From positions 1-34,283 of the forward strand of contig JAPCJK010000010.1 of assembly GCA_027886975.1 (NCBI GenBank): DNA of 34,283 bases. The letters are read 5' to 3'. Each line of letters starts with the position of its first letter. The first letter of the stretch is position 1. Source of the stretch: Nitrososphaerota archaeon (GTDB lineage Archaea; Thermoproteota; Nitrososphaeria; Nitrososphaerales; Gagatemarchaeaceae). A program made the position numbers and the translations under genes. The notes below the pieces were generated by a model, which was not told where the DNA came from, searched no databases, and worked only from the letters and a program-made list of their open reading frames with translations. This document shows positions 13,593 through 21,747 of the stretch, piece after piece.

Positions 13593-15359
13593 ATGTGCGG
13601 GATCGTGGGTTGCGTGGCTGACGAGCCGGTGGCTGGCATCCTCCTCGAAGGTCTGAGGAGGGTTGAGTACCGGGGGTATGATTCGGCCGGGATGGCAACA
13701 ATCAACGATGGATCGTTGAAGCTGAGAAAAGGGGTGGGGAGGGTAGACGAAATCGAGGATGAGCAGGGGCTATCGAAGCTCAAGGGAAACATCGGGATGG
13801 CCCACACGAGGTGGGCGACTCACGGAGGAGTCACAAACGAAAACGCGCATCCCCACGCGTCCTGTAAGGGGCTCGTGGCGGTAATCCACAACGGGATAAT
13901 CGAGAACTACGTCCCGCTGAAGAAATCGCTCATCGCAAAAGGACACAGGTTCCGAAGCGAGACCGACACCGAGGTGATCGCTCATCTTGTTGAGGACGAG
14001 TACAAGCGCACGAGAGATCCGACCAAGGCGACCATCGCAGCTACGAAGAGACTCAAGGGGCAATACGCAATCGCCTTGATGTTCCAGGACAGACCCGACG
14101 TCATCGTCGGGGCGAGGAAGGACGCCCCCTTGATAGTCGGGGTGGGGGAAGGCAAGATGTTCATCGCCAGCGACGTGCTCGCCTTCATCGGGCACACAGA
14201 TAGGACGATATTTCTGGACAACTTCGAGGTCGTGGAAATCAGCAGGGACAGAGTCAAGATATTAGGGCCCGGAGGGAAAGAGGTCAAACGCAAGCCAACC
14301 CAGGTTGCGTGGGAGCTTTCGGACCTCTCAAAGAGCGATTTCGCACACTACACACTGAAGGAGATCAATGAGCAGCCAAAGACGGTCATCACAGCGTCCG
14401 TCCAGGAGCCAGGCAAGGTGGAGCAATTCGCCAGGGCGATTAGGAGGGCGAAGTCCCTCTACATCACAGCGTCCGGGACTTCATACCATGCTGGGCTCTT
14501 GATGAAGTTCCGGCTGAACAAGGAGGCTAGTATCAGGGCGGACACGGTTGTCGCGGGGGAGCTGAAGGAGCACGCCGGATTCCTGAGGAAGGGTTCGGTG
14601 GTGGTGGCTTTCTCTCAAAGTGGAGAGACGGCGGACGTGTTGGAGGCCGTGAAGGGCGCGAAGAGCAAGGGAGCGAAGGTGTATTCCATCGTCAACGCGG
14701 CTGGCTCCACGCTGGCGCGCGAGAGCGACGGAGTCCTTCTGCTGAACTGCGGGCCCGAGGTCGGGGTCGCTGCGACGAAGAGCTTCACCGCCCAGGTGGT
14801 TGTGGCGAGCATGGTGGTAGACGCGGTCCTCGGTAAGAAACGTTCGAACGGAATAAAGGAGCTCTCGGAAGCTGTGGCTGAAGCCCTGAAGTGCGACGAG
14901 CAGATTCGCGACCTTGTGCACGAATACAAGGACAGGCCAGACTTCTACTTCGTCGCCAGGGGGTATGAGAGCCCCGTGGCGTTGGAAGGCGCGCTCAAGT
15001 TGAAGGAGCTCTCTTACATCCACGCGGAGGGTATGCCCGCGAGCGAACTCAAACACGGCACCCTGGCGCTCATAGAGAAGGGAACCCCGGTGGTCGTTTT
15101 GAACCCCAGCGGGGACGCCCACGCGGACTCGCTTTCGAGCGCGGAGGAGCTGAAGGCCAGAGGAGCGGAAGTGATTGGGATCTCCGATATCGAAGACAGC
15201 GTGTACACGCATTTTGTCCGTCTCCCAAAGGTTCAGGCGAAGTTCACCCCGATAGTCGAGGCGATACCTCTCCAGCTCCTTGCGTATCACATGGCAGTCG
15301 CAAAACGAAATGACCCTGATTATCCAAGGAACCTTGCGAAATCTGTGACTGTCAAGTAA
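13593..15359 (+). CDS. glmS: Glutamine-fructose-6-phosphate aminotransferase (isomerizing)
   Basis: GlmS makes glucosamine-6-phosphate from fructose-6-phosphate and glutamine, the entry to UDP-GlcNAc and surface glycans. The 588-residue protein has the class II glutamine amidotransferase N-terminus with the catalytic Cys directly after the initiator Met (MCGIVG), HTRWATHG and NGIIENY. Two SIS sugar-isomerase domains follow, with ASGTSYHA, FSQSGETADV, and the C-terminal YPRNLAKSVTVK ending. The length is normal. It is monocistronic or joined to dys, with 92 bases between them. Confidence 0.97.
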   Translation: MCGIVGCVADEPVAGILLEGLRRVEYRGYDSAGMATINDGSLKLRKGVGRVDEIEDEQGLSKLKGNIGMAHTRWATHGGVTNENAHPHASCKGLVAVIHNGIIENYVPLKKSLIAKGHRFRSETDTEVIAHLVEDEYKRTRDPTKATIAATKRLKGQYAIALMFQDRPDVIVGARKDAPLIVGVGEGKMFIASDVLAFIGHTDRTIFLDNFEVVEISRDRVKILGPGGKEVKRKPTQVAWELSDLSKSDFAHYTLKEINEQPKTVITASVQEPGKVEQFARAIRRAKSLYITASGTSYHAGLLMKFRLNKEASIRADTVVAGELKEHAGFLRKGSVVVAFSQSGETADVLEAVKGAKSKGAKVYSIVNAAGSTLARESDGVLLLNCGPEVGVAATKSFTAQVVVASMVVDAVLGKKRSNGIKELSEAVAEALKCDEQIRDLVHEYKDRPDFYFVARGYESPVALEGALKLKELSYIHAEGMPASELKHGTLALIEKGTPVVVLNPSGDAHADSLSSAEELKARGAEVIGISDIEDSVYTHFVRLPKVQAKFTPIVEAIPLQLLAYHMAVAKRNDPDYPRNLAKSVTVK

Positions 15360-17745: not shown

Positions 17746-18934
17746 TGGTCTTGGACCTCTCTTCACCGTGCGAAACCAGGCTTACGTTGACTCGTAGCTC
17801 CTCCTCCAGGTACCCTACAAGCTTCTTGCCCTCTTCGGGGAGACCGTTGTCATACCTGGAACCGTGCAGGGACAATGGCGACTCGTAGACCGGTTCCACC
17901 TCCTCAAGGTGAGCCAGGGACCCCTGGAAATCCGCGGACTCCGACCCCTGGTACTTGTATGCCACGCATGCCTTGAATTCTTTGACCTGAGAGAGCACGT
18001 CCAGCTTTGAGACTGCGACCTTTTTGACGCCGTTGAGGGCGATGCTATACCTTAGGGCTACGAGGTCCAGCCAGCCGATACGCCTGGGACGGCCGGTGGT
18101 CGCCCCGTATTCATTCCCTATGGAGCGAATGTTATCCGCGACTGGCCCGGTGACTTCAGTGGGGAAGGGGCCGCTCCCGACCCTTGTCGCGTAGCACTTC
18201 ATGACTCCTAGTGGCTCTCCTGCAGCCGAGGGTGGGATTCCAAGCGAGGCTGGGATATAGCTCGCAATTGTGTGTGTTCCGGTGACGAAGGGGTAAGAGC
18301 CGTGAAGAAGGTCGAGGAGGGTTCCCTGAGAGCCCTCGAAGAGAACGTTGCCCCCCCTTTCATTTATTTCGGTGATTCGGTCGCTGGCGCTTCCCAGAAG
18401 ACTGCCTAGGAGCCGCTTCGACTCCTCGGACCAGGCTATCAGGCCTTGCGGGTTTACGGAGAGCTTCTCATAGAATCGAACCATGGCCGCAAAATCGAAC
18501 CCTCGCATAAGGTCGGACACCCTGGGCGATAGTCGCAGAGCCCTGGCCGCGTAGGCCGGTCCTATCCCCCGCTTGGTTGTCCCGATTGCCGACGATCCTT
18601 TCATCTCCTCAAGAACCGCGTCGAGCTGTTTGTCCATCGGTGAGACTAGACTGCACCTGCCGTCGACCATGAGCTTGCGTTTGACGCCATCGGGGAGCAG
18701 CGAGAGTTCCTCCCCAAGGACGACAGGGTCAACGACGACCCCTGCCCCGATCAAAAGATCCTTCCCCTTGAGGGCTCCCGAAGGGATAAGGTGGAAAGTG
18801 TGTCTCCTCTCCCCGATAACGACCGTGTGGCCGGCGTTGCTCCCGCCGTTGAACCGAGCGACCGCATCGTATTGACCCGCCAGATAGTCGACCACCTTCC
18901 CTTTTCCTTCGTCCCCCCACTGGAGCCCGACCAC
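17735..18934 (-). CDS. purA: Adenylosuccinate synthetase
   Basis: PurA joins IMP and aspartate using GTP, the step before PurB on the way to AMP. The 399-residue protein has the P-loop-like QWGDEGKGKVVD near the N-terminus, NGGSNAGHTV, the GTTKRGIGPAYA motif and the IMP/GTP-binding GATTGRPRRIGWLD. It is slightly shorter than the bacterial enzyme, as archaeal forms often are. The GTG start lies 16 bases after the guaB stop. With guaB and purB it forms a purine branch-point operon serving both GMP and AMP arms. Confidence 0.96.
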   Translation of the reverse strand: MVGLQWGDEGKGKVVDYLAGQYDAVARFNGGSNAGHTVVIGERRHTFHLIPSGALKGKDLLIGAGVVVDPVVLGEELSLLPDGVKRKLMVDGRCSLVSPMDKQLDAVLEEMKGSSAIGTTKRGIGPAYAARALRLSPRVSDLMRGFDFAAMVRFYEKLSVNPQGLIAWSEESKRLLGSLLGSASDRITEINERGGNVLFEGSQGTLLDLLHGSYPFVTGTHTIASYIPASLGIPPSAAGEPLGVMKCYATRVGSGPFPTEVTGPVADNIRSIGNEYGATTGRPRRIGWLDLVALRYSIALNGVKKVAVSKLDVLSQVKEFKACVAYKYQGSESADFQGSLAHLEEVEPVYESPLSLHGSRYDNGLPEEGKKLVGYLEEELRVNVSLVSHGEERSKTIEL

Positions 18935-18950: not shown

Positions 18951-20426
18951 TCAGACTACCTTCTGGATGTCGTGGGGGAGGCTCTCCCTGTGACCCGCCG
19001 CTGTTATCCTCATGAACTCTGCGTTCCGTCTGAGCTCATCGAGTGTGTGGGCCCCTGAGTAGCTCATGCCTGACCTCAGTCCCCCGACCAGCTGTTTGAC
19101 CACCTCGTCGACCCTGCCTTTGTAGGGGATCAGGCCCTCGACTCCCTCCGGGACGCTCTCCTCGATTAGCTCCTCTATGAGCTCATCCTCCGTGAGCACG
19201 CCGGGTCCGCCCTCCCTGACGCGGCGGTCGAGAGTGGCCGCCAGCGAAGCCATCCCCCTTGTTAGCTTGTACCTGACCCCGTCCCTGAGTATGGTCGGGC
19301 CCGGGCTTTCTTCCGTTCCAGCGAACAGGCTCCCTATCATCACGGTGGAAGCCCCGGCTGCGAGCGCCTTCGTGACATCTCCTGGATTCCTTATGCCGCC
19401 GTCGCCGATGATCGGGACGTCGCTGTCGCTTGCCCCGGCAGCGCTGTCCATTATCGCAGTCAGTTGCGGGACTCCCGAGCCCGTGACTACCCTCGTCACG
19501 CAGATGCTCCCTGAGCCTACCCCTACCTTTACCGAGTCGGCCCCTGCTTTGATCAGGTCGAGGGCGCCCCTGGCTGTCGCGACGTTGCCGGCTACGACCT
19601 CCACGTCCCCTAATTCCTTCTTGATCCCTCGGACGGTGTCGATGGCGTAAGATGAATGGCCGTGCGCGATGTCCACAACGAGGGCGTCCACCCCCGCATC
19701 CAAGAGCCTACGAGATCGCGCCATATGGTCCCCCTTTACGCCAACGGCCGCTGCCACTCTCAGCCTCCCCTTGGCGTCCTTGGTCGCAGAAGGAAACTGC
19801 CTTCTCTTCATGATGTCCTTGGAAGTTATTAGGCCGGCAAGCTTCCCGTTCCTATCGACAAGGGGGAGCTTCTCGACTTTGTTTTCATGCAGGATCCTTC
19901 TGGCCTGCTCCAGGGTCACCCCTTTAGGGGCGGTGACCAGTTCTCGCCTTGGCGTCATCACCGTCTTTACTTTCCTGTCCAAGTCCTCTTCCAAGGTGAT
20001 GTCCCGTCTAGTCAGTAGTCCCAAGATTCTGCGGTCTTGGCCGACCACGACTATCCCTCCGATGTCGCGTTCTCTGATGATATCCCAAGCCTCTTTGACG
20101 GTACCGTCAGGGCCGAGCGTGATCGGGTCTTCGATGACGACCCCTTCGGACCTTTTTACCTTGATGACTTCGGCAACCTCATCGTCGACAGAAAGGAACC
20201 TGTGGATGACACCTATGCCGCCGAGACGGGCCATGGCTATCGCCATGGACGATTCTGTCACAGTGTCCATGTTGGCGCTGACCACTGGGATGGTCAACCG
20301 GATCCGCCGCGAAAACCTGGCCTGGGTGTCTGCGTCCTTCCTGGACCGAACGTCGGAGAACTTTGGCACGAGGAGGACGTCGTCAAAAGTGAGGCCGACC
20401 TTGAGGTCGGGAGCGGAACCCTTCAC
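18951..20426 (-). CDS. guaB: Inosine-5'-monophosphate dehydrogenase with CBS pair
   Basis: IMPDH oxidises IMP to XMP with NAD, the committed step to GMP. The 491-residue TIM-barrel protein has the N-terminal [11 protein letters not shown], two CBS domains inserted at about residues 93-210, and the catalytic loop with Cys 309 (GSGSICVTR). The region after it is unusual. KLTRGMAS at 387-394 replaces the common YRGMGS, and the flap reads LDRR (399-402) where an Arg-Tyr pair is expected, followed by an acidic insertion before VPEGVEG. Catalytic details may therefore differ. The start is GTG with a TATA box 23-30 bases upstream, so the mRNA is probably leaderless. Confidence 0.93.
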
Positions 20427-20456: not shown

Positions 20457-20602
20457 TGTTTGTGGGCAACCATATTCTTGGCTTGATAGGCGAATGGACC
20501 AGCGGGGAATAATTACGCGTAAGGGGACACCATAGGAAATCGGGTTGACTAGGGCGCCGGGAGTGGGATTTGAACCCACAACGCGGTTTCCCACGACAGG
20601 CT

Positions 20603-20617
20603 GGCTGGCCTGCGGGA
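20603..20617 (-). other. Canonical tRNA intron at position 37/38
   Basis: The 15-base intron in tRNA-Ser forms a strict bulge-helix-bulge. The central helix CTGG/CCAG is four base pairs, with three-base bulges AAT and CCA on either side. Cutting after the second base of each bulge joins A37 to A38 and restores a normal seven-base anticodon loop. Archaeal tRNA-splicing endonuclease recognises this motif. Confidence 0.9.
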
Positions 20618-20625
20618 TTCCAGGC

Positions 20626-20640
20626 TTGCGCGATGATAAT
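20626..20640 (-). other. Noncanonical tRNA intron at position 29/30
   Basis: The second 15-base intron interrupts the anticodon stem. A four-pair central helix GCGC/GCGC is flanked by bulges AGA and AAG, with an outer helix TAGG/CCTG and an eight-base terminal loop. Cutting after the second base of each bulge yields stem CAGGC, which pairs perfectly with GCCTG. Introns at 29/30 are known in archaea, where heteromeric endonucleases process such relaxed sites. Confidence 0.88.
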
Positions 20641-20692
20641 CTGCGCCCTACCAGATTAGGCGACCCCGGCGACCCGTGCCGAAATCCCGAGG

Positions 20693-20757: not shown

Positions 20758-21747
20758 TCATGAAGCCTTCTTTTTCGCTGAATGACTCTTCCAGAGTTTC
20801 GGATACGTCCCTTGGTTCATGATTACACGTTCAGTCGTCGATGCCAGCCCCTTCTGATGCGACCGTACCTCGTCGGAGGAGAGGAGTGCCTTCCCAATTG
20901 CGACAAGCTCGTGCTTCGAGCTGAGCAGGACAACCGTATCGTCTTTCTTGATCCCCTCCGAAAGAGAGAGTATCCCGGGGATTCCCAGGCGGGCGCCGTG
21001 GCAAATTGCGTCGACCGCTGAATCACGAATCACAATCCTGGGGATGTCGCCCAGCGTGTCCTCAATAGGACGCACTATGTTTCGGAGAAGGGCCTCATCG
21101 CCGTTCTTCAGCCTGTACATCGCATCATTGACTTGGTGGAGCGTCACGAGTCCGCTCGCTTCGGAAAGCGGGCCGACCCGGGTCCGACGAAGTTCGACCA
21201 TGGTGGCACCTACTCCCAGGACTTCGCCAATGTCATAGACTAGTTTACGAATGTACGTCCCCGATTGGCAGAGACATCTGAACAGGAACAGGTTTCCGGT
21301 AGCCTCCGTGACTTCTAGCTCGTAGACATTCCTGCTCCTCGTCCGCCTGCTTACCGAAGATCGCTGGGGGGGCCTCTGGAAGATTTCGCCGGTGAACTCG
21401 CCTATGACAGCGTCGAGCTGCTTCCTGGGGACTGATGAGTGTAGCCTCATCACTCCGCGATACTCCTTGGGGAAAAGGAGCAGGAGGCTGAGCGCTCGGG
21501 TGGCTCTTCCAACGCCGATGGGAAGGAGCCCTGACACAGGAGGGTCGAGGGTGCCGCTGTGTCCCGCCCTTTGGACACCCAGCAGCCTCTTCGTCCAGGC
21601 TACTATCTCGTGGCTTGTAGGCCCCCTGGGCTTGTCGAGTGGAACAAGTCCGTATTCCAACATAGTCGGGACGGGGCGCGCAGAAGGGGGATTGCCATGC
21701 TCGGGGTCATTGGGCTCTTCGTCGAGAACGATCATCTTTGGTGGCAA
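20758..21747 (-). CDS. truB: tRNA/rRNA pseudouridine synthase Cbf5 (TruB family)
   Basis: Cbf5 is the catalytic protein of archaeal H/ACA guide RNPs and can also modify U55 of tRNA directly. The 329-residue protein has the catalytic-loop GHSGTLDPPVSGLLPI containing the active Asp, the LDKPRGPTSHEIVAW segment, and a C-terminal PUA domain from about residue 245. The start used is TTG at 21747, overlapping the end of the kinase gene; ATG at 21735 is an alternative. It is the last gene of the long minus-strand operon. Confidence 0.95.
   Translation of the reverse strand: MPPKMIVLDEEPNDPEHGNPPSARPVPTMLEYGLVPLDKPRGPTSHEIVAWTKRLLGVQRAGHSGTLDPPVSGLLPIGVGRATRALSLLLLFPKEYRGVMRLHSSVPRKQLDAVIGEFTGEIFQRPPQRSSVSRRTRSRNVYELEVTEATGNLFLFRCLCQSGTYIRKLVYDIGEVLGVGATMVELRRTRVGPLSEASGLVTLHQVNDAMYRLKNGDEALLRNIVRPIEDTLGDIPRIVIRDSAVDAICHGARLGIPGILSLSEGIKKDDTVVLLSSKHELVAIGKALLSSDEVRSHQKGLASTTERVIMNQGTYPKLWKSHSAKKKAS

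Follow-up and report, generated by a model that had tools for sequence, protein, structure and literature searches.

A serine tRNA gene with two predicted introns and overlapping splicing motifs in a Nitrososphaerota archaeon

Can a 116-nt sequence that an intron-free tRNA search passes over be a working serine tRNA gene and, if so, what has to be removed from it, by which enzyme and in which order? This question is raised by a locus in a contig of a Nitrososphaerota archaeon (GCA_027886975.1, JAPCJK010000010.1), of which the whole stretch of 34,283 nucleotides that was analyzed is here called the window. The original prediction described a tRNA-Ser(GGA) gene interrupted by two 15-nt introns, one at the canonical position 37/38 and one in the anticodon stem at position 29/30.

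Gene structure and splicing motifs

The unspliced gene had been called unfoldable, which was correct only in part. ARAGORN without introns called no tRNA in the window, but the 116-nt gene scored 35.5 bits as a tRNA against Rfam RF00005 (gathering threshold 29). In intron mode, ARAGORN interpreted the raw sequence as tRNA-Gly(GCC) with one 32-nt intron. The two-intron tRNA-Ser(GGA) was thus missed or miscalled by a standard tRNA finder. Removal of 20640-20626 and 20617-20603 resulted in an 86-nt type II tRNA, which ARAGORN identified as Ser(GGA) with a full cloverleaf. Its anticodon stem was CAGGC/GCCTG and its anticodon loop CTGGAAA, as had been foreseen. The locus is a working-looking serine tRNA gene, predicted from its sequence to be functional after removal of two introns. 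The features are as follows.

20555..20670, minus strand: two-intron tRNA-Ser(GGA) gene, with a precursor of 116 nt and a mature form of 86 nt (Rfam RF00005; ARAGORN on the spliced form)
20641..20670, minus strand: exon 1, tRNA positions 1-29
20626..20640, minus strand: intron 29/30, 15 nt, ATTATCATCGCGCAA
20618..20625, minus strand: exon 2, positions 30-37, GCCTGGAA, containing the anticodon GGA
20603..20617, minus strand: intron 37/38, canonical position, 15 nt, TCCCGCAGGCCAGCC
20555..20602, minus strand: exon 3, positions 38-73, with variable arm, T arm, 3' acceptor strand and discriminator G
20643..20646, minus strand: 29/30 motif, central helix, 5' strand GCGC, in the exon
20628..20631, minus strand: 29/30 motif, central helix, 3' strand GCGC, in the intron
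20647..20650, minus strand: 29/30 motif, outer helix, 5' strand TAGG, which belongs to the D arm once the tRNA is mature
20621..20624, minus strand: 29/30 motif, outer helix, 3' strand CCTG, overlapping the 37/38 central helix
20620..20623, minus strand: 37/38 bulge-helix-bulge, central helix, 5' strand CTGG
20605..20608, minus strand: 37/38 bulge-helix-bulge, central helix, 3' strand CCAG, in the intron
20758..21747, minus strand: upstream neighbour outside the feature, an ORF for a TruB/Cbf5-like tRNA pseudouridine synthase (identity by reading the sequence)
18951..20426, minus strand: downstream neighbour outside the feature, an ORF for an IMP dehydrogenase (GuaB)-like protein (identity by reading the sequence)

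No encoded CCA was seen at the 3' end of the tRNA gene.

The intron borders were searched for blindly among 2,137 candidates, comprising the unspliced gene and each form obtained by cutting out one or two segments bounded by 3-nt bulges and a central helix of 4 bp. Exactly the 29/30 and 37/38 pair ranked first, with an ARAGORN score of 119.1 compared to 111.9 for the next candidate. The two introns, their positions and boundaries and the anticodon GGA were in this way recovered to the base, in agreement with the relatives described below. When the middle part of the gene was shuffled 60 times, the best score was 116.7, and none reached 119.1. This margin is modest, and the evidential weight therefore lies on the comparison with relatives.

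Each intron was found to lie within a motif of the bulge-helix-bulge or relaxed type, whose central helix has 4 bp and whose 3-nt bulges contain the predicted cuts. The 29/30 motif consists of a GCGC/GCGC central helix, the bulges AG-A and AA-G, an outer TAGG/CCTG helix and a terminal loop, all of which had been predicted. The 37/38 motif has a CTGG/CCAG central helix and the bulges AA-T and CC-A. It had been described as a strict bulge-helix-bulge, and the helix and its 3-base bulges were indeed present, but a clear inner helix was lacking and the outer helix was complete only with the 29/30 intron gone. As each intron has an 8-nt loop and no clear inner helix, both motifs are relaxed when compared to the strict hBHBh' form.

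Orthologs across the order

Approximately 150 related genomes of the order were searched, and orthologous tRNA-Ser(GGA) genes were found throughout the genus, the family and the order. In many relatives the gene lies close to the TruB/Cbf5-like ortholog, and in many of those having a GuaB-like gene it adjoins that gene. Among 30 distinct gene sequences, the 37/38 intron (12-25 nt) was present in all 30 and the 29/30 intron (12-24 nt) in 25. The central-helix pairs of the 29/30 motif were kept in 98/100 cases (25 distinct introns), compared to 35 ± 4.6 for shuffled introns with a maximum of 51 in 2,000; the corresponding values for the 37/38 motif were 109/120 (30 distinct introns) and 53 ± 5.2 with a maximum of 72. 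The sequences are related by descent, and these pair counts are consequently not independent events. The intron loops were free to vary in sequence and length while the bases of the central helices were conserved in pairing, although in a few relatives the 37/38 central helix was down to 2-3 of its 4 pairs. Covariation between the exon and intron strands of the 29/30 helix was seen in two further families. Here the exon strand is GGGC in place of GCGC and the intron strand GCCT or GCTC, with 4/4 pairs kept; the coupled change affects base 25 of the exon and the intron base paired with it.

The 29/30 intron was missing in five distinct genes, three of them from the same genus. The same-genus genes without it agree with the predicted spliced junction; G011 (locus L052) reads GGGCGCAG followed directly by GCCTGGAA, which is exactly that junction. 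A third intron of 25-27 nt was found in the T loop of seven distinct genes, in part of the genus only (L038-L040, L044, L046, L048-L051, L057, L059 and L167). It forms a long hairpin with a strong inner stem, whose sequence differs among species. Gains and losses were placed on a midpoint-rooted GuaB+TruB tree with several weak nodes, in which the T-loop intron fell in a derived part of the genus. With the caution that these nodes demand, the 29/30 intron seems to have been present in the ancestor of the genus and to have been lost there at least twice, and it is probably old in the order. One locus with the same flanking genes in many relatives and one, two or three introns provides a clean ortholog series outside Crenarchaeota. 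The precise natural losses make the gain and loss of archaeal tRNA introns a testable question at this locus, and the series also makes it possible to test whether splicing motifs that overlap dictate the order of removal.

The relatives also bear on two other explanations of the locus. A pseudogene, or a tRNA in decay that has taken up insertions by chance, would fit the low unspliced score of 35.5 bits. However, both insertions recur at identical positions in most relatives, with helix bases under selection. A second Ser(GGA) gene was not found in the host assembly (about 95% complete), so the gene is probably needed. The pseudogene interpretation was dropped on account of this conservation and of the sole Ser(GGA) copy, and is considered highly improbable. 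A tRNA of another identity, unspliced or otherwise spliced, is suggested by the Gly(GCC) call of ARAGORN on the raw sequence. That call is regarded as an artefact, since it fitted less well than the two-intron Ser(GGA), which ranked first. Moreover, the genome already holds a Gly(GCC) candidate (L030), and relatives without the 29/30 intron were plainly readable as Ser(GGA). A different identity is judged even less probable than a pseudogene. A functional tRNA-Ser(GGA), with two introns predicted to be cut by the host's own (alpha-beta)2-type endonuclease and exons presumably joined by RtcB, is very probably the correct explanation.

Splicing endonuclease and order of intron removal

Thaumarchaeota are assigned the alpha2-beta2 type of splicing endonuclease in reviews, according to which relaxed motifs are removed efficiently only by the alpha2-beta2 and epsilon2 types (PMC4090602, PMC6379350). 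Broad specificity is conferred by a loop with a conserved lysine, K44 in A. pernix (PMC6379350, PMC12397907). The original prediction had expected a heteromeric endonuclease and had proposed a search for two EndA-type genes. Two PF01974 genes (L031 and L032) were located in the host genome (95% complete), in accordance with this expectation at the gene level. The catalytic subunit aligned over its full length to the catalytic subunit of A. pernix (E 1e-43). It carries the Tyr/His/Lys triad and, in the broad-specificity loop, a lysine aligned to K44. In this it matches the (alpha-beta)2 EndA of Aeropyrum pernix (PDB 3p1z, 3ajv; triad Y125/H133/K164). The second, structural subunit is without the histidine and, unlike the Aeropyrum enzyme, is nearer in sequence to M. 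jannaschii 1a79. The host enzyme is accordingly predicted from its genes to be an (alpha-beta)2-type splicing endonuclease. Two EndA genes were present in most of the 150 relatives, and a gene for the RtcB ligase was present in the host.

The K44-equivalent lysine was found in the host and in 30/30 related alpha subunits that were aligned (L174-L203). A loop lysine described as crenarchaea-specific is thus conserved in the Nitrososphaerota examined, beside intron-rich tRNAs. A YYGKP.G..KP motif was seen beside this lysine in nearly all of the 30 subunits. The small size of the introns had been taken as the pointer to a broad-specificity enzyme, and this argument was not retained; it is the noncanonical position together with the relaxed motif that leads one to expect such an enzyme.

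The two motifs cannot be formed at the same time. C32, U33 and G34 (CTG) belong both to the 29/30 outer helix (positions 31-34) and to the 37/38 central helix (positions 32-35), and three bases claimed by both motifs make the motifs mutually exclusive. The 29/30 motif uses its own intron and exon bases only, and the 37/38 intron is dispensable for it. The 29/30 intron interrupts the anticodon stem, and with it the outer helix that the 37/38 motif requires, so that only 2 of the 5 stem pairs are contiguous before removal. The modelled 37/38 motif had an energy of -37.1 kcal/mol in the full precursor and -44.7 kcal/mol after removal of the 29/30 intron, a gain of 7.6 kcal/mol. The pairing probability of the 29/30 central helix in the precursor was 0.96. 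From the overlap of the motifs, and the restoration of the anticodon stem only after 29/30 excision, we infer that the 29/30 intron is removed first. This order is held to be somewhat more likely than not. The pre-tRNA would refold with TAGG of the D arm paired to CCTG of the anticodon region, and the 29/30 intron would be cut first from this refolded form. Its removal would restore the anticodon stem and so give the 37/38 motif its outer helix, the 37/38 intron would then be cut, and the exons would presumably be joined by RtcB. According to the tRNAscan-SE 2.0 report, that program handles introns lying so near each other that one has to leave before the next motif can form (PMC8450103).

Alternatively, both introns could be real and removed in no fixed order. 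This concerns the order only and is compatible with the explanation given above. Naked-RNA partition-function folding across the relatives favoured neither order clearly, as the mean pairing probability of the 37/38 helix was 0.145 before and 0.152 after removal of the 29/30 intron, and the 29/30 motif does not depend on the presence of the 37/38 intron. Against the absence of an order stands the modelled loss of stability of the 37/38 motif, whose outer helix is just 2 bp before 29/30 excision. In the host, naked-RNA folding even after 29/30 removal gave a GGCCTG/CAGGCC hairpin as the best structure (-51.5 compared to -44.7 for the 37/38 motif), and this preference for another fold counts against the proposed order. 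Removal without a fixed order is a serious but less probable alternative to removal of the 29/30 intron first. It is a tentative and rather unlikely extension that mutually exclusive motifs are kept by selection across the tRNA-Ser genes of the taxonomic order, with the 29/30 intron placing a decoy helix on the anticodon loop and so forcing the order of removal.

Known multi-intron tRNAs and other tRNA genes of the host

Archaeal tRNAs with several introns, and introns at noncanonical positions, have been described in Crenarchaeota, Caldiarchaeum and Thaumarchaeota (PMC3293823, PMC3218864, PMC8450103). Such tRNAs had been described as occurring mainly in crenarchaeal and related lineages. Their occurrence in archaea is well established, and the tRNAscan-SE 2.0 report already has such introns in the phylum of the host, with 107 noncanonical Thaumarchaeota tRNA introns modelled in that program, so that they are less rare than was implied. 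Thermoproteales (Pyrobaculum, Thermofilum) and Caldiarchaeum subterraneum resemble the present case in having 2-3 introns per tRNA, noncanonical positions and bulge-helix-bulge or relaxed motifs (same sources); in contrast, the present genes are from Nitrososphaerota and form a defined ortholog set with one, two or three introns at one locus. The Thaumarchaeota introns of tRNAscan-SE 2.0 are from the same phylum, and PMC8450103 likewise describes tRNA genes with 2-3 close introns of which one has to leave first, whereas the present host lineage was encountered in this analysis only as metagenome assemblies. A multi-intron, noncanonical tRNA as such is already known; what is added is the presence/absence series of orthologs, the overlap of motifs and the occurrence of the loop lysine beyond Crenarchaeota.

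In a census of the tRNA genes of the host genome, noncanonical introns were common, with many ties between boundary choices. The Glu(TTC), Arg(TCT), Ala(GGC), Gly(GCC) and Met genes folded only with noncanonical excisions, the exact borders of which often tied. Two different tRNA-Glu(TTC) genes, on contigs C71 and C107 (L146, L148), each needed noncanonical excisions of about 16-19 nt in the D-arm region. A tRNA-Ser(GCT) candidate (L206:148-314; contig C74, about 18347-18513) apparently has three inserts, of 17 nt (D arm), 14 nt (position 29/30; TCAAAACGGCGCAA) and 50 nt (T arm or its vicinity), the borders of the outer two being ambiguous. With just 19.2 bits as an Rfam tRNA, it is more extreme than tRNA-Ser(GGA). 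Its 29/30 insert has a GCGCAA end identical to that in tRNA-Ser(GGA).

Among the relatives, L161 and L164 from one family and L162 from another contain a tRNA-Ser with a long insert in or beside the 5' acceptor strand (e.g. GCCGG-AAAGG...), in some cases with further introns as well, and a D-arm insert was seen in L154/L155. Finally, host contig C99 carries near its end (15047-15070; L215) a perfect 24-nt duplicate of the tRNA-Ser(GGA) 5' end, with no remaining tRNA. This copy could be the leftover of an integration event.
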